33,292 nt of DNA from an uncultured Tolumonas sp. (lineage in GTDB: Bacteria > Pseudomonadota > Gammaproteobacteria > Enterobacterales > Aeromonadaceae), in the NCBI GenBank assembly GCA_937866945.1, contig CALMKU010000021.1, positions 1 through 33,292 on the forward strand, in the 5' to 3' direction. Below are positions 610-25,398 of this stretch, piece after piece. The position numbers and the translations under genes were made by a program. Positions within the stretch are counted from its first letter, which is position 1. Each line of letters begins with the position of its first letter. The notes under the pieces were generated by a model. That model ran no database searches, was not told where the DNA came from, and worked only from the letters and a program-made list of their open reading frames with translations.

Positions 610-2202
610 TTACATACGCCGCATATTGATATTCATGATTTGAATGCGATACGCAATCTGGCGTGGTGTCATGCCCAGCAAACGCGCCGCTTTAGCTTGC
701 ACCCAACCACAACGTTCTAACGCGGCAATCAAACGCTGACGTTCATCCAATTGCGGATCGGTGAAATCAACATCGGTCGCAATGGCCGGTTTGCTGACTG
801 CCACGGGTGCGCTGAAGCCGGTTTGTGGGCGCTCGTTGGCATGGAACAGCACCACATCGCGATCAATCAGACCCGTTTCCGACATGATGGTGGCACGCTC
901 CAGACAGTTTTCCAGTTCACGCACGTTACCTGGCCAGTCATGGCCTAGCAGCATTCGGATCGCACCATCGCTGATTTTAATTTCCCGCCCCTGCTTTTCT
1001 GACAGTTTTTGCACCAGAAATTTAGCCAGCTCCGGAATATCTTCCAGACGCTCGCGCAGTGGTGGCAGCTGGATCGGCATGACGTTCAGACGATAATAGA
1101 GATCTTCACGGAAATTGCCTTTACGCACCTCATCTTCCAGATTGCGGTTGGTCGCGGTGACAATGCGCACATCCACTTTTAAGGTGTCAGTGCCACCGAC
1201 GCGCTCCATTTCTCCTTCCTGCAGAATACGCAGTAACTTGGCCTGAAATGAGGCGCTGATTTCGCCGATCTCATCTAAAAACAGTGTGCCACCATCGGCC
1301 ATTTCAAAACGGCCTTTCCGCTGTTTCACCGCACCGGTAAAAGCCCCTTTTTCGTGCCCAAACAGCTCACTTTCCAACAAGGTATCAGGTAATGCCGCAC
1401 AGTTGAGTTTAACAAACGGCCCGTTCACCCGCGGTGAGTTGTAATGGATCGCAGTGGCAATCAGCTCTTTACCGGTACCACTTTCGCCACGTACCAGCAC
1501 GGTAGTATCCCATTTCGCCACCTGACGGATGGAATCAAAAATCTGCCGCATCGCTTGTGTCTGGCCAACCATATTATCGAACCCATATTGGCTGCGAACT
1601 TTACGGCGCAAACTGTCACGTTCCGTTTTTATCGCTTCATGTTCGGTATGCACCTTCCCAATCAGACGTACGGTCTGTCCGATGAGGTTAGCCACCATTT
1701 CCATAAAACGGGTCCGGGCTGGCAGCTCAGTTTCATCCAAGGATTGCGGTTGTGCCGCTAATACCCCGATCGGCTGGCTATCTGCACCGGGGATCGGTAC
1801 ACAGATGAATGGCAGTGCATAATCATACAAATTCAGGCGATCAAGAAAACGCGGATCATCGGCGACGCGTGGGATCACCAGCGCATGGCCCTGATGCATC
1901 ACGGTGCCCATGATGCCTTCCCCCATGCGATAGCGAACGCCTTTAACATCTTTCACGACTTCCGCATCAATGCCGTGTACAGCCTGGATAAACAAGGCGC
2001 TCCGGTTGTGATCAAACAGAGAAACCAGACCATATTGCATGTGTGCGATGTCGCTCAGCGTTTGCAAGGTACTGCGTAGCGTTTCTTCCAGATCGAGTGA
2101 GCGGCTAAGCACAATACTGATCTGGTGTAACGCATTCAGTTGCTGCTGCATGCTGAGGCTTTTATTTCCATTGGTGGAAAACAGGCTAGCGTGCGTATTC
2201 AT
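610..2202 (-). CDS. nifA: Nif-specific transcriptional activator NifA
   Basis: NifA is the sigma-54-dependent activator of nitrogen fixation genes. The 530-residue protein has the standard three parts. An N-terminal GAF domain spans about 25-185. The AAA+ domain at about 210-440 has Walker A GESGTGKE at 239-246, the sigma-54-contacting GAFTGA loop at 286-291 and Walker B FLDE at 308-311. A C-terminal Fis-type helix-turn-helix lies at about 501-522. The region after the AAA+ domain has no cysteine cluster like the one that senses oxygen in rhizobial NifA. This fits the gammaproteobacterial type, which relies on NifL. The start overlaps the nifL stop as ATGA, with GGGAGG just upstream inside nifL, so translation is probably coupled. 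Likely targets in this window are the TGT-N10-ACA sites before rnfA, nifF and nifV. Confidence 0.97.
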
Positions 2203-3725
2203 TTTTTATCCTCCCTGATAATGGCGCACAGAGGCAGCCTGAGCCGGATACAACTACCCCCTAAATCACTCGTTTCCACTTCGATCACCCCTCTATGATC
2301 GTTAACGATATTTTGTGCAAAACCTAATTCGATAGTGTCGTTACGCTTCCCGCCGTTTTCAGTTTGTGGTTGTAATAAGCGGTGGGTCGCAGTGACAGCC
2401 GGCGCTGGCCCGCTGTCGTGTACTTCCAGACAAAGTTCCTGTTCGTTCTGATAAGCACATAATTTCAGCTGCCCGGCGGATTGGCCGGTGACCGCCTGAC
2501 AGGCGCGATCAAATAACAGACTCAGTGCGGTTAATAAGCGGGTGCGTTGCGTAAACAGTTCTGGTAGATCAGCTGCAATGTCCAGTTGCATCAGCACATC
2601 GAGATGCTCTAAACGCAGTGTCAGCATGTCGTGCAGATCAGCAAACAGACTCATCAGATCAAAACGGGTCGGTTCTTCTACCTTAATCGCCGGGCGATAT
2701 TGTTCCAGCCGCTGTAGCGCCTGATGACCGGCTTCTAAGGCAGTGTGAATGGCAATCGCCGCCCGACTGTCGGGGTTGGATTCCAGACGCAACGCGGCTT
2801 GCAGCATGTTGAGCGGCGCCTGGCTTTGTACCATCGCCACATCCAGCGTTTCCCGAATGGCAGAAAACAGCGTTTGTTCTTCCACCTGCACACGCAGTTG
2901 TTCCAGCCGTGATTGTTCGAGCTGCTGACGGCGTTCGGTTTGATCGCTGATCATCAGCAATGAACAAGGCCGTTTGCCGTCACCAAAATAGAGACTCGCC
3001 TCTTCATTCAGCTCAGACAGTGGCTGGATCAGAATGCTGAACCAGCGCTGACGACCACGAATGGTCAGTGGCCACAACTGGTCACGATCAGGGCGTTGGG
3101 CACCCGGTGTAAAACCCAGTGCGGTGTAAGGTTCGTTACCACGCAGGTCGGTGCGTAAGGTTTTGTAGGTCAGGTTATCGAGCACGACCTTATGGTGTTC
3201 ATCAAGCACGGCAATCGCCGTTGGTGCGGCATCGAGCACCGCTTCTATCATGGCTTTTTGGTTGTGTACCCGCTGTTCCAGCGCAAACTGTTCGCTGATA
3301 TCACGGTGCATGCCCAGATAGTGAGTGATCTGGCCTTCGCCGTTGACCACCGGTGTGACCGTGACTTCCGCCAGATATAAAGAGCCATCTTTGCGTTTGT
3401 TGATCAGACGACCGGTCCACGGTTGATGCTGAGATAATTGATGCCACATCGCCTGATAACGCGATTTCGGGGTTTGCTGGCTGGCCAGAATATTGTGGTT
3501 TCGATATTGCAGCTCACCGCGCTTATAGCCGGTGGTACGACAAAAAGCGGTATTACAATACAGAATGTTCGCTTTCGGATCGGTGATCGATATCCCTACG
3601 GAAGATTGCTCAACCACACCATAAAACAGCTCCATCGGCAGCACCGATAGCATTTGCTGTAAGCTGGCACTGTTGATGCAGACCGCTCCGGTGGTCTCAG
3701 GGATATAGTTTTGCAGGATATTCAT
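2199..3725 (-). CDS. nifL: Nitrogen fixation regulator NifL (anti-activator of NifA)
   Basis: NifL is a flavoprotein that binds and blocks NifA when oxygen or fixed nitrogen is present. The reading frame stays open upstream to 3905, but I place the start at 3725: that ATG follows AGGAGAG at good spacing and gives 508 residues, close to the roughly 495-520 of known NifL proteins. PAS1, the FAD-binding redox sensor in this family, spans about 31-147 and ends in the typical HRDISE motif at 140-145. A second PAS-like domain covers about 160-270. A histidine-kinase-like module follows, with an N-box-like stretch near 399-412, a DSGP motif at 437-440 and a C-terminal ATPase-like segment at 463-498. 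No clear phospho-accepting histidine is seen where the H-box should be, as expected for a NifL that works by protein contact. It is divergent from rnfA. Confidence 0.95.
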   Translation of the reverse strand: MNILQNYIPETTGAVCINSASLQQMLSVLPMELFYGVVEQSSVGISITDPKANILYCNTAFCRTTGYKRGELQYRNHNILASQQTPKSRYQAMWHQLSQHQPWTGRLINKRKDGSLYLAEVTVTPVVNGEGQITHYLGMHRDISEQFALEQRVHNQKAMIEAVLDAAPTAIAVLDEHHKVVLDNLTYKTLRTDLRGNEPYTALGFTPGAQRPDRDQLWPLTIRGRQRWFSILIQPLSELNEEASLYFGDGKRPCSLLMISDQTERRQQLEQSRLEQLRVQVEEQTLFSAIRETLDVAMVQSQAPLNMLQAALRLESNPDSRAAIAIHTALEAGHQALQRLEQYRPAIKVEEPTRFDLMSLFADLHDMLTLRLEHLDVLMQLDIAADLPELFTQRTRLLTALSLLFDRACQAVTGQSAGQLKLCAYQNEQELCLEVHDSGPAPAVTATHRLLQPQTENGGKRNDTIELGFAQNIVNDHRGVIEVETSDLGGSCIRLRLPLCAIIREDKK

Positions 3726-3757
3726 ACCCTCTCCTTTAAATGCGCTAAATCGCCAGC

Positions 3758-3773
3758 TGTGAGCAATCAGACA
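3758..3773. promoter_or_regulatory. TGT-N10-ACA motif (NifA-type upstream activator sequence), site 1
   Basis: An exact TGT-N10-ACA match, 33 bases upstream of the nifL ATG. It would lie inside the nifL leader if the predicted nifL promoter is right, and about 290 bases upstream of the rnfA promoter. Its role is therefore unclear, and it could be chance. Confidence 0.35.
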
Positions 3774-3828
3774 ATTTGTCGGTGTTGATGAATCTGTGAT
3801 GTGGTTGTCGCCAGACCTCTTTGATAAA

Positions 3829-3846
3829 AGCAAGAGTCGTTCCGAA
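3829..3846 (-). promoter_or_regulatory. Candidate sigma-54 promoter for nifLA
   Basis: On the minus strand the sequence reads CGGAACG-ACTC-TTGCT, with the obligatory GG and GC 10 bases apart. It matches the TGGCACG-N4-TTGCA consensus except for the first T, the C after GG and the last base. It is the only GC-N10-CC spacing I found on this strand between 3726 and about 4000. The predicted start near 3819 would give a leader of about 94 bases before nifL. Confidence 0.55.
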
Positions 3847-3878
3847 AAATTCATTTTGACGTGATCAACTGGCTCGCT

Positions 3879-3894
3879 TGTCATACCCAGAACA
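3879..3894. promoter_or_regulatory. TGT-N10-ACA motif (NifA-type upstream activator sequence), site 2
   Basis: An exact TGT-N10-ACA match. It is centred about 170 bases upstream of the predicted rnfA start and about 68 upstream of the predicted nifL start. Of the three motifs here it is the best placed to activate rnfA. Confidence 0.6.
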
Positions 3895-4010
3895 AAACCA
3901 TACAAAAAATAGGCTTATAGCGACAAAAATAGCGGGATGCTGTCTGCTTTAACTCAATCAAAGTCCGGTTTTGTTAGATCCAAATGCCTCGTTATGGGGC
4001 AACGCCTCAC

Positions 4011-4026
4011 TGTGATGCAGCACACA
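4011..4026. promoter_or_regulatory. TGT-N10-ACA motif (NifA-type upstream activator sequence), site 3
   Basis: An exact TGT-N10-ACA match ending only four bases before the rnfA -24 element. That is closer than the usual 80-150 bases for NifA. It could act on nifL from about -200, could modulate rnfA, or could be fortuitous. Confidence 0.35.
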
Positions 4027-4030
4027 ATTT

Positions 4031-4047
4031 TTGGCATAAGTTTCGCA
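4031..4047 (+). promoter_or_regulatory. Sigma-54 promoter for the rnf operon
   Basis: The sequence TTGGCATAAGTTTCGCA has GG and GC exactly 10 bases apart. It has a good -24 box (TGGCA) and a one-mismatch -12 box (TCGCA). The predicted start near 4057 leaves a leader of about 28 bases with GAGAGG before the rnfA ATG. This also argues against the ATG at 4055 as the rnfA start. Confidence 0.75.
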
Positions 4048-4084
4048 TTTTCCCTTGCATCTGGGTTTAAGAGAGGCAAACGGA

Positions 4085-4663
4085 ATGCAGGAACTGCTGC
4101 TAATCATACTGGCCAACGGGCTGGTTAATAATGTGGTGCTGTCCCGGTTTTTGGGGCTGTGCTCATTCATGGGGGTTTCAAACAAGGTTTCATCGGCAAT
4201 CGGAATGGCGATGGCAACAACCTTTGTTTTAACTATGGCCACAAGCGTCGGTTGGATTGTCGAGCACGCGGTGTTAATGCCATTAGGTCTGGAATACCTG
4301 CGCTTGCTGACCTTCATCATGGTGATTGCTTCGCTGGTTCAGCTGACGGAATTGTTTATCGCCAAACAGAGCCCTGAACTGCACCGCACGCTGGGGATCT
4401 TTCTACCACTGATCACCACTAACTGTGCTGTTCTGGGTATCGCCTTATTAACCATTCAGGAAAAACTCTCCTTCATTCAGGCACTGGTCTACGGCTTTAG
4501 TTCTGCACTGGGTTATTCGCTGGTGATCATTTTGTTTGCTGGTTTACGGCAACGGCTGGAGAAATCGGTATTGCCCGATCTGTTCAGCGGCACCCCTATC
4601 AGTTTTATCACCGCAGGCATTTTGGCAATGGCATTTGCCGGATTCGGCGGCTTAGCCGGTTAA
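4085..4663 (+). CDS. rnfA: Rnf electron transport complex subunit A
   Basis: RnfA is a hydrophobic six-helix membrane subunit of the ion-translocating Rnf complex (RsxA in E. coli). It forms a pseudo-symmetric pair with RnfE and is thought to bind a membrane [2Fe-2S] cluster between the two subunits. The sequence shows the family blocks LVNNVVLSRFLGLCSFMGVS near the N terminus and LITTNCAVLGIA in the middle; the latter includes the conserved TNCA cysteine. I chose the ATG at 4085 (192 residues), because an upstream in-frame ATG at 4055 would sit at the predicted transcription start and lacks a ribosome site. It is the first gene of rnfABCDGEH, read from a sigma-54 promoter divergent from nifLA, the arrangement of the nif-linked rnf1 cluster of Azotobacter. 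Confidence 0.95.
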   Translation: MQELLLIILANGLVNNVVLSRFLGLCSFMGVSNKVSSAIGMAMATTFVLTMATSVGWIVEHAVLMPLGLEYLRLLTFIMVIASLVQLTELFIAKQSPELHRTLGIFLPLITTNCAVLGIALLTIQEKLSFIQALVYGFSSALGYSLVIILFAGLRQRLEKSVLPDLFSGTPISFITAGILAMAFAGFGGLAG

Positions 4664-10750: not shown

Positions 10751-10766
10751 TGTGCGGTTTGTCACA
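10751..10766. promoter_or_regulatory. NifA upstream activator sequence of nifF
   Basis: An exact TGT-N10-ACA match centred about 100 bases upstream of the predicted nifF transcription start. This is the usual distance for NifA action on sigma-54 promoters. Confidence 0.75.
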
Positions 10767-10832: not shown

Positions 10833-10848
10833 CGGCACCGTTCATGCA
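10833..10848 (+). promoter_or_regulatory. Sigma-54 promoter of nifF
   Basis: The sequence CGGCACCGTTCATGCA has GG and GC 10 bases apart, a strong -24 box (GGCAC) and a near-consensus -12 box (ATGCA against TTGCA). The predicted start near 10859 leaves a 26-base leader containing AAGGAGAG before the nifF ATG. Confidence 0.78.
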
Positions 10849-16950: not shown

Positions 16951-16968
16951 AGCAATTCTTATTCCCAA
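16951..16968 (-). promoter_or_regulatory. Candidate sigma-54 promoter of nifVWZM
   Basis: On the minus strand GG and GC are 10 bases apart, with a good -12 box (ATTGCT) but a degenerate -24 box (GGGAA). The match alone would be weak. The NifA site about 105 bases upstream and an IHF consensus between them make it credible. The predicted start near 16941 leaves a short leader with AGGAGGTG. Confidence 0.55.
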
Positions 16969-17037: not shown

Positions 17038-17053
17038 TGTTGCAGATACGACA
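17038..17053. promoter_or_regulatory. NifA upstream activator sequence of nifV
   Basis: An exact TGT-N10-ACA match centred about 105 bases upstream of the predicted nifV start. It abuts the T tract of the aroP terminator. Confidence 0.7.
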
Positions 17054-20870: not shown

Positions 20871-20978
20871 AACTGAGATTTAAGCTTATTATCTAACTAT
20901 CTACAATCTATACGATTTTATTTTTTGCCGAACAATATAAAAAAATAGCAGAGAGCATGGTGTTACTCAAACTTGAAG

Positions 20979-20994
20979 GTTGACATAGATCACA
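20979..20994. promoter_or_regulatory. Candidate CRP site upstream of the gluconolactonase gene
   Basis: The right half TCACA is perfect and the left half GTTGA matches three of five in TGTGA-N6-TCACA. The same segment contains TTGACA (20980-20985), a possible -35 box, though no good -10 box follows at the usual distance. Confidence 0.4.
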
Positions 20995-21013
20995 ATAAAA
21001 CCGGTTACATTTT

Positions 21014-21029
21014 ATGTTACCGGAAACAT
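21014..21029. promoter_or_regulatory. GntR-like operator upstream of the gluconolactonase gene
   Basis: ATGTTACCGGAAACAT differs by one base from the palindrome ATGTTACCGGTAACAT, the operator form known for the LacI-family gluconate repressors GntR/IdnR. A degenerate second copy, ATAAAACCGGTTACAT, lies 19 bases upstream (20995-21010). Confidence 0.6.
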
Positions 21030-21068
21030 CCTGTTAATCTGCATTTAGTCATTCCCGGAGAGAACATC

Positions 21069-21941
21069 ATGCAGGCACTATCAGCACAACGCGATCAACT
21101 AGGTGAATGCCCTCGCTGGCATGCGGAAACACAAACTTTGTGGTGGGTTGATATTACACAGCATCAGATCCACCGTCACCATCCTGCCAGCGGGCAGCAT
21201 AATGTCATTCAGCTGCAAGAAGAGATCGGCTGTTTTATTTGGCGTGAAAAAGGTGGATTACTGGTCGCTCTGCAATCAGGTTTCCATTTCATTGATGATA
21301 TAAATAACCCGACTTTAACACCGATTGTTGACCCTGAAGCCGACAAGCCCTGGCAACGCTTTAACGATGGCCGGTGTGATCCGACAGGTCGCTTTATTGC
21401 CGGCACCATGAATGCCCGCAAAGATGATTCTTTTGGTACGTTTTATCAGTTAAATCCTGATTTGAGCGTGCGCCCACTGGTTGGCAAAAGCTGGACCTGT
21501 AACGGCATGGCCTTCAGCCCGGATGGCAAAACACTGTATTGGTCGGATACACCCATTCAGAACCGCAATATCTACCGCTGCGATTACGATCCGGAAACAG
21601 GTGAAGTCAGTAATCAACAGCTGTTTTTCCATGTACCGGAAGGCATGGGGCGCCCGGATGGCGCCACCGTTGATAGCGAAGGCAATTACTGGTCAGCGCA
21701 ATATGCCGGTAGCCGTGTGCTGTGTATCAGCCCGCAGGGTGAATTACTGCGTGAGATCATGCTGCCAGTGACCAACCCAACTATGCCCTGCTTCGGTGGC
21801 CCGGATCTGAAAACCTTGTATGTCACCAGTGCTAGTCAGGGGATGTCGGCAGAACACCTAGCTGCACATCCACTGGAAGGTGCAGTACTGGCCATTCCGA
21901 TGGATGTTGCCGGTTTACCAGAAGTTGCTTTTGCCGGATAA
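21069..21941 (+). CDS. SMP-30/gluconolactonase family lactonase
   Basis: The protein is a six-bladed beta-propeller sugar lactonase of the SMP-30/gluconolactonase/LRE family, which opens aldonolactones such as gluconolactone to the acid. The start at 21069 follows GGAGAG and gives 290 residues; the open frame extends further upstream without a ribosome site. Expected metal residues are present: Glu in GECPRW near residue 12, Asn in the RFNDGRCDPTGRF block, Asn in TCNGMAFSPDGKTLYWSD, and Asp in RPDGATVDSEGNYWSA. The substrate is uncertain, and arabinono- or other lactones are possible. The GntR-like operator and CRP-like site upstream fit a role in gluconate-type sugar acid use under catabolite control. 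Confidence 0.85.
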   Translation: MQALSAQRDQLGECPRWHAETQTLWWVDITQHQIHRHHPASGQHNVIQLQEEIGCFIWREKGGLLVALQSGFHFIDDINNPTLTPIVDPEADKPWQRFNDGRCDPTGRFIAGTMNARKDDSFGTFYQLNPDLSVRPLVGKSWTCNGMAFSPDGKTLYWSDTPIQNRNIYRCDYDPETGEVSNQQLFFHVPEGMGRPDGATVDSEGNYWSAQYAGSRVLCISPQGELLREIMLPVTNPTMPCFGGPDLKTLYVTSASQGMSAEHLAAHPLEGAVLAIPMDVAGLPEVAFAG

Positions 21942-24993: not shown

Positions 24994-25398
24994 CTATTCG
25001 TCAACACGCATGATCTTCATCACACCGCTGATTGGATCAGCATGGAAAAATGTCATATTTTGTAATGTCGGCTCTTTCTTGCGAGCCTGTTCTGAAAGTT
25101 CACAAATCACATTCTGTCGCGTTTTATCACCCGCACATTCGGCACCTTTGGCTGACTCGGGGACCCACTGCATCCGCTGCCAAAACTCAATGCGCTCCTG
25201 TTTTGACAACGCGTGAAGAGCAATGATTTCATTATCAGCGACCCTGATTAATTGGTAGCTCCCATGATGGTTGACAACTTTCCAGACGATTTCATCGGCA
25301 TGCTGTGTGAACTCATGCGTATAAGCGCCGTCGAGACACGCGGTATGGGCCTGAAGTGCAAAAGGAATAGCCAACAGAGTAAAAATAATCTTTCGCAT
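24994..25398 (-). CDS. Small secreted protein of unknown function
   Basis: This 134-residue protein begins with a clear Sec signal peptide (RKII, then a hydrophobic stretch to about residue 17) and probable cleavage near ALQA or AHTA. The mature part is soluble, with three cysteines (about 21, 87 and 97) and a motif-free charged sequence. The cysteine right after the signal does not sit in a lipobox, so I do not call it a lipoprotein. A periplasmic location with a possible disulfide is likely. I do not recognise the family. The ribosome site is weak. It stands alone between hxpA and cysH. Confidence 0.6.
   Translation of the reverse strand: MRKIIFTLLAIPFALQAHTACLDGAYTHEFTQHADEIVWKVVNHHGSYQLIRVADNEIIALHALSKQERIEFWQRMQWVPESAKGAECAGDKTRQNVICELSEQARKKEPTLQNMTFFHADPISGVMKIMRVDE

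Follow-up and report, generated by a model that had tools for sequence, protein, structure and literature searches.

Gene content and promoters of the nifL-rnfA interval

The window, a 33,292-nucleotide stretch of DNA, is contig C21 of a genome of 2.76 Mb in 413 contigs whose named close relatives are Tolumonas. Within it, nifL (2199-3725, reverse strand; TIGR02938, 341 bits against a cut-off of 242), the first gene of nifLA, and nifA (610-2202, reverse strand; TIGR01817, 710 bits, cut-off 529) diverge from rnfA (4085-4663, forward strand; TIGR01943, 253.8 bits, cut-off 229), with the three gene names taken from NCBIfam models scoring above their cut-offs. The interval between the nifL and rnfA start codons is 359 bp (3726-4084), where the ATG at 4085 is taken as the start of rnfA and the corresponding entry in the list of open reading frames opens at a TTG at 4055. 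Two other reading frames of the window, at 20973-21941 (322 aa) and 24994-25398 (134 aa), gave no NCBIfam match at an E-value of 0.001.

Promoters recognized by sigma-54 carry -24/-12 elements with the consensus TGGCACG-N4-TTGCW. One such box had been claimed for each strand of this interval, and both were recovered: CGGAACGACTCTTGCT preceding nifL (3829-3844, reverse strand), which agrees with the consensus at 10 of 12 positions, and TGGCATAAGTTTCGCA preceding rnfA (4032-4047, forward strand), which matches nine of 12. Transcription is assumed to start 11 nt beyond each box, and the promoter-relative positions given below depend on this assumption.

The same interval contains three exact copies of TGT-N10-ACA, as the original prediction stated. 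Site 1 (3758-3773) resides in the nifL leader, with its centre at +52 relative to nifL and -292 relative to rnfA, and is therefore upstream of rnfA only and not of the nifL box. Site 2 (3879-3894) is centred at -68 (nifL) and -171 (rnfA), and site 3 (4011-4026), which abuts the rnfA promoter, at -200 (nifL) and -39 (rnfA). The distance from site 3 to the initial T of TGGCA in the rnfA box is five bases, rather than the four originally given.

The density of the motif in the window (nine matches in 33,292 bp, which represents no enrichment over the 10.7 expected) predicts 0.097 occurrences in 359 bp, and that in the genome (539 matches in 2.76 Mb) predicts 0.070, a range of 0.07-0.10 that agrees with the earlier estimate of approximately 0.1. 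The corresponding Poisson probabilities of at least three occurrences are 1.4e-4 and 5.5e-5. Because approximately 0.6 clusters of three motifs within 269 bp would be expected somewhere in the genome, the motif count alone is only suggestive.

Conservation of the three motifs among Tolumonas genomes

NifL is present in 10 of the 11 genomes of the genus, the eleventh being 70% complete. All three motifs are kept in each of the 10 genomes with the locus, which are related and so do not count as independent events, and this holds even for a lineage whose NifL and control region are only 72% and 60% identical, respectively, to those of the window. Loss of the motifs from close relatives, which would have spoken against the original prediction, was thus seen in none of them. 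The alignment consists of 11 rows from these 10 genomes, in which L027 and L031, from the same contig, are both retained, L026 and L028 are omitted as copies of L036 and L038, and L029 is assigned to G300 as its upstream contig, with L025 (= L034) as the NifL contig of this genome. All 18 fixed motif columns are invariant, compared with 155 of the 362 reference columns overall, and full invariance is exhibited by 13 of 284 identically shaped masks placed off the sites versus three of three at the sites. The core bases of both sigma-54 boxes are also conserved. Sites 1 and 2 are 121 bp apart (110 bp in L035), and sites 2 and 3 are separated by 131-133 bp. On sequence grounds, this conservation in 10 of 10 genomes is stronger evidence than the motif count, and the nifL-rnfA interval is a genuine control region, composite in structure and conserved.

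The nucleotides between the fixed bases differ in their behaviour among the three sites. Across the 11 rows, eight of 10 spacer columns are invariant in site 1 and seven of 10 in site 3, compared with only one of 10 in site 2. The pattern expected for a protein that reads the bare TGT-N10-ACA rule is therefore present in site 2 only, and sites 1 and 3 are constrained over most of their length.

The nif-linked rnfA genes of these loci are of two types, which share 75-76% (L027, L030, L031, L032, and L037) or 93-95% (L026, L028, L029, L033, L035, L036, and L038) identity with that of the window. These types are out of step with NifL identity, which is 97-98% in four members of the 75-76% group, and this suggests that the rnf operon has undergone replacement or gene conversion.

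Site 2 corresponds to a predicted enhancer common to nifL-rnfA regions

Loci encoding NifL outside the genus were collected from an order-level sample of 295 genomes (NifL at an E-value of 1e-60) and a class-level sample of 369 genomes (1e-55). Among 19 other NifL genomes of the order, 18 carry rnfA head to head with nifL. The class sample yielded a further 19, with rnfA head to head in 13, no rnfA in the fetched stretch in five, and a weak, non-divergent rnfA match in L080. The one order locus that lacks rnfA in the fetched stretch, L006 (G126), encodes the NifL that is closest in identity from outside the genus (40%), and the NifL match of L078 (G460) includes one in-frame TAG.

Every one of the 31 divergent nifL-rnfA regions outside Tolumonas contains TGT-N10-ACA, and 15 contain at least two copies (three of 18 in the order, 12 of 13 in the class). 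Fourteen of the 18 order regions have a motif at a distance of 42-43 bp from a nifL box, and 13 of the 14 place that motif 120-131 bp from the rnfA box as well, making it the counterpart of site 2, for which these gaps are 34 and 137 bp; in L020, a different motif is located 132 bp from the rnfA box. The class regions are organized around motif pairs, which are 39-42 bp apart in nine, 33 bp apart in two, and 133 bp apart in L076, with a single motif in L091. The upstream activator sequence (UAS) of Tolumonas nifE resides 33 bp from its box in all six genomes read, three of which have an overlapping second UAS, so the 34 bp that separate site 2 from the nifL box are an ordinary distance.

We therefore predict that site 2 serves as the NifA enhancer common to nifL-rnfA regions. 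Its centre at -171 bears out the original placement at about -170 of rnfA, and its proximity to the nifL box makes the suggested autoregulation of nifLA by NifA plausible. A conserved run, ACAAAACCATACAAAAA..GG..TAT..CGACAAAA, adjoins site 2 (3890-3930), and similar AAAACC-containing text is observed in L007 and L008.

A putative NifA-type element in the nifL leader

To score candidate sites, a NifA matrix was derived from 54 unique UASs, which were drawn from the non-Tolumonas nifL-rnfA regions and from Tolumonas nifH, nifE, the nifU operon, and nifV. The leader elements of L007, L009, and L076 were left out, as were the promoter motifs of the nifU operon other than its UAS; nifV was included in the matrix used for held-out scoring and absent from that used for percentiles. 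Held-out scores of the training UASs range from 5.0 to 22.1, with the nifV UAS of the window (17038-17053, reverse strand; box at approximately 16951-16966, reverse strand), itself a member of the training set, reaching 20.9. The three sites were scored in eight of the 11 rows (all except L027, L031, and L033). Scores of 10.7-11.7 were obtained for site 1 (10.8 in the genome of the window) and 8.7-13.4 for site 2 (a low 8.7 in the genome of the window), all of which fall inside the held-out range and also inside that of unselected motifs. Because the median score of 164 exact TGT-N10-ACA motifs in the fetched nif loci, copies of the sites included, is 8.5, the matrix alone proves neither site. 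When only the non-fixed letters are compared with random letters, site 1 occupies the 87th-91st percentile and site 2 the 72nd-95th. The assignment of site 2 consequently rests on its common position and free spacer, and that of site 1 on counterparts in another family.

These counterparts occur in L007 and L009, where the sole TGT-N10-ACA of the interval is situated in the nifL leader and has, like site 1, the form TGT-N9-GACAATTTGT. With scores of approximately 14.0-14.3 (L007) and 16.7-16.8 (L009), compared with 4.9 and 4.4 for the next best sequences in the respective intervals, they are the best NifA-type sites present, which is in keeping with the original proposal of such a site within the nifL leader. 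Site 1 is therefore predicted to be an element of this type. It also resembles a CRP site at eight of 10 positions in nine of the 10 rows scanned.

Alternatively, sites 1 and 3 might be chance matches that are conserved through their overlap with a leader RNA or with the flank of a promoter. Their spacers are indeed almost as conserved as their fixed bases, and site 1 shares bases with a longer palindrome, GACAATTTGTC (3770-3780), which is likewise conserved and is intact in all 11 rows save for its central base in L037. As a wider motif in the 11 genomes, this palindrome is free of mismatches in the nifL leader of 10 but revealed no wider regulon, and copies with one mismatch are about as common as those in the control. 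An RNA element in the leader gained no support, as the predicted fold is not unusually good (z = 1.2), and Rfam yielded no match between positions 3400 and 4500. The rarity of fully invariant masks elsewhere in the alignment also argues against coincidental conservation, as does the retention of both TGT and ACA by site 1 in the other family, where the spacer differs. We thus give the chance explanation little credence.

Site 3 resembles a CRP site rather than a NifA site

In the eight rows scored, site 3 receives only 0.8-5.4 with the NifA matrix, which in seven rows is less than the lowest held-out UAS (5.0), and the letters outside its fixed bases reach only the 15th-49th percentile of random letters, which is no better than chance. 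The score of 5.4 in L036 is just above the lowest held-out UAS and counts against the assignment of site 3 to CRP. The consensus palindrome for CRP is TGTGA-N6-TCACA, which is a special case of TGT-N10-ACA, and searches for NifA sites can therefore mistake CRP sites for their targets. Site 3 matches the CRP consensus at nine of 10 positions in 10 of 10 genomes (10 of the 11 rows, one per genome, with L031 left out). A full match is never attained, as the right half is ACACA or CCACA and never TCACA, whereas TGTGAT and CACA are invariant. The genome of the window encodes a CRP ortholog (L126; NF008732, 395 bits, cut-off 266), and a 25-residue stretch containing its recognition helix is identical to that of a CRP chain in the PDB. 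FNR was also considered as the binder of the palindrome but is not favoured; each of three genomes searched with PF00325 encodes two proteins of the Crp type, one of which is FNR-like by eye and the other CRP.

The location of site 3 is likewise unusual. At five bp from the rnfA box, it is closer than any motif in the 31 regions outside the genus, among which the nearest is at 30 bp (L020) and the next at 65 bp, and no counterpart was found at the same position in these regions. Nine-of-10 CRP matches occur in two of the 31 (L021 and L022), both overlapping the central UAS. A scan of the 11 Tolumonas genomes for a palindrome followed by a sigma-54 box detected the rnfA promoter once in each of 10 genomes, together with one other match in G295, and nothing in the control.

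Two other interpretations retain NifA as the ligand of site 3. All three motifs could be NifA sites, with site 2 functioning as the enhancer and sites 1 and 3 as governors that limit expression of nifL and rnfA at high NifA concentrations. Three exact motifs with every fixed base conserved are what such an arrangement would require, and sites 3 (-39) and 1 (+52) are situated where a bound activator would obstruct transcription. This proposal leaves the poor matrix scores of site 3, its seven invariant spacer columns, unexpected under a bare TGT-N10-ACA rule, and the greater distance of motifs from the rnfA box in the other regions unaccounted for, and we consider it unlikely, albeit the most credible of the alternatives. 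In the second interpretation, site 3 is a far-upstream UAS of nifL that adjoins the rnfA box by chance. Its distance of 166 bp from the nifL box falls among those of the other regions (mostly 42-262 bp, measured to the best-scoring nifL box). The same matrix scores weigh against it, however, and nifL already has a conserved UAS in site 2 only 34 bp from its box, such that we regard this possibility as very remote.

The prediction of NifA sites is thus supported for sites 1 and 2 but not for site 3, and the repressive role that had been suggested for a protein bound next to the rnfA promoter may hold with CRP, rather than NifA, as the binder. NifA and CRP motifs are not always separable, as the nifF UAS (in the window at 10751-10766, forward strand, 66 bp before the box at 10833-10848, where it is a nine-of-10 CRP match) is both placed as a UAS and CRP-like at nine to 10 of 10 positions.

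CRP palindromes adjoin sigma-54 boxes of other nitrogenase-linked operons

Perfect CRP palindromes number 67 in the 11 Tolumonas genomes (three to 11 in each), compared with 19 for the reversed control. Sixteen are at nitrogenase-linked promoters, including those of nifF and of a TonB receptor gene beside vnfH; the flanks of 20 others were read, only one of which has a sigma-54-like box within 60 bp, and the remaining 31 were counted without such a reading. A search of these genomes for a sigma-54 box followed after 0-12 bp by TGTGA-N7-CACA returned nine matches (seven at the nifU operon, one at anfH, and one at a tupA-like gene) and none in the control. All nine contain perfect CRP palindromes, located 4-9 bp past the boxes.

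At the nifU operon, whose first gene we take to be a small iscA-like open reading frame, the palindrome lies 4 bp past the box in six of six aligned genomes and in G298, with nifU and nifS confirmed by models in G295 only. Box, palindrome, and leader are nearly invariant at this nifU-nifS promoter (L056 at approximately 4710; L058, L060, L061, L064, and L066), and in the six genomes a UAS is followed by repeated GACAAA-like words. The anfH palindrome of G301 is 9 bp past the box, in a locus where the AnfD and AnfK models score above their cut-offs. In G304, the palindrome at the tupA-like gene is 7 bp past the box and approximately 9 kb from vnfK; the VnfD model is above its cut-off in this cluster, and the TupA match is below its own. 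A TonB siderophore receptor gene beside vnfH in G304, along with its counterpart in G303, has a perfect palindrome after an imperfect box (the palindromes near vnf genes, at the tupA-like and receptor genes, are at L130 9313, L131 1372, and L129 7954), and the perfect palindrome nearest to vnfH of G304 is not at the vnfH box.

This pairing is not general, because in the sequences scanned the sigma-54 boxes of nifH, nifE, nifV, and nifL have no adjoining nine-of-10 CRP match. Six genomes have a match of this quality upstream of their nifH UAS, and an eight-of-10 match follows the nifE box. The box-then-palindrome search was also applied to 38 further gammaproteobacterial genomes that encode NifL and gave two matches, neither with a recognised nif gene among open reading frames of at least 100 aa within approximately 3 kb. 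A strict search for a box with a UAS across the genus gave 14 matches and missed nifF and nifV.

Proposed function of the control region

Our preferred interpretation, to which we assign a probability of roughly 60%, is that NifA and sigma-54 control both divergent promoters of the nifL-rnfA interval, with NifA acting at sites 2 and 1 and with rnfA damped by CRP-cAMP at site 3. From site 2, bound NifA would loop to contact sigma-54 polymerase at either promoter, raising expression of its own operon and of the Rnf electron-transport operon. Site 1 would contribute additional NifA occupancy and, being in the transcribed leader, may limit read-through of nifL at high NifA concentrations. CRP-cAMP, and not NifA, is expected to occupy site 3, where at -39 it would make contact with the sigma-54 polymerase at its upstream edge and, at the high cAMP levels of carbon or energy shortage, counteract the activation of rnfA by NifA.

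CRP might instead activate rnfA from this site, as its centre at -39 is near the -41.5 that is characteristic of sigma-70 class II CRP promoters. No -10-like hexamer is apparent by eye at the matching spacing (positions 4048-4053 read TTTTCC), however, and the palindromes found at anfH and at the nifU operon would extend across the start point, which is a repressor position. The effects of CRP on sigma-54 nif promoters are also reported to be negative (PMC3900584). Activation by CRP is, in our estimation, decidedly unlikely.

Damping of rnfA by CRP-cAMP could be one instance of a broader arrangement. The CRP palindromes set against sigma-54 boxes of nitrogenase-linked Tolumonas operons (rnf, the nifU operon, anfH, and the tupA-like gene) may constitute a promoter-encoded veto, through which cAMP-CRP imposes carbon and energy status on NifA-type activation, and we judge the odds of this generalization to be about even. 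Nitrogen fixation is very costly, and the route by which carbon and energy status reaches the nif genes is usually assumed to involve NifL, PII proteins, and 2-oxoglutarate. If the proposal is correct, a CRP site placed against the sigma-54 boxes of electron-supply and nitrogenase operons would provide a direct DNA route from cAMP to nitrogen fixation. Reports of CRP sites at Tolumonas nif promoters were absent from the literature matches listed.

Comparison with known systems

The divergent sigma-54 promoter pair of Tolumonas, with its shared control region, is reminiscent of the divergent nifF-nifLA region of Klebsiella pneumoniae, except that the partner operon there is nifF, whereas in Tolumonas it is rnf. 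The E. coli glnAp2 promoter has governor sites, which are promoter-proximal, low-affinity NtrC sites, and the promoter-proximal sites of Tolumonas could likewise limit output. The glnAp2 governors bind the activator itself, whereas Tolumonas site 3 is unlike a NifA site.

In Pseudomonas stutzeri A1501, nifL and rnfA are neighbours, as in Tolumonas, and both operons are predicted to have UAS and -24/-12 sites; nifLA and rnfABCDGEF are reported to be NifA- and RpoN-dependent, with data not shown in the paper (PMC2820453). Among the 13 class-level divergent regions, a set that leaves out the A1501 sequence, 11 carry two UASs 33-42 bp apart, whereas in Tolumonas a single central UAS is combined with a leader site and a CRP-like site. 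CRP-cAMP is stated to down-regulate the nifB, E, F, H, J, LA, and U promoters of K. pneumoniae in E. coli (PMC3900584, citing Li 2002). The antagonism of CRP towards sigma-54 promoters that are activated from a distance, which is described there for E. coli glnAp2 and the Klebsiella nif promoters in E. coli, is what we predict for Tolumonas. The CRP-like palindromes of Tolumonas are within 4-9 bp of the sigma-54 box at rnfA, anfH, and the nifU operon. Control of divergent promoters by NifA and sigma-54 is thus the known component of this system, and the CRP-like site at the sigma-54 box is likely to be the new one.
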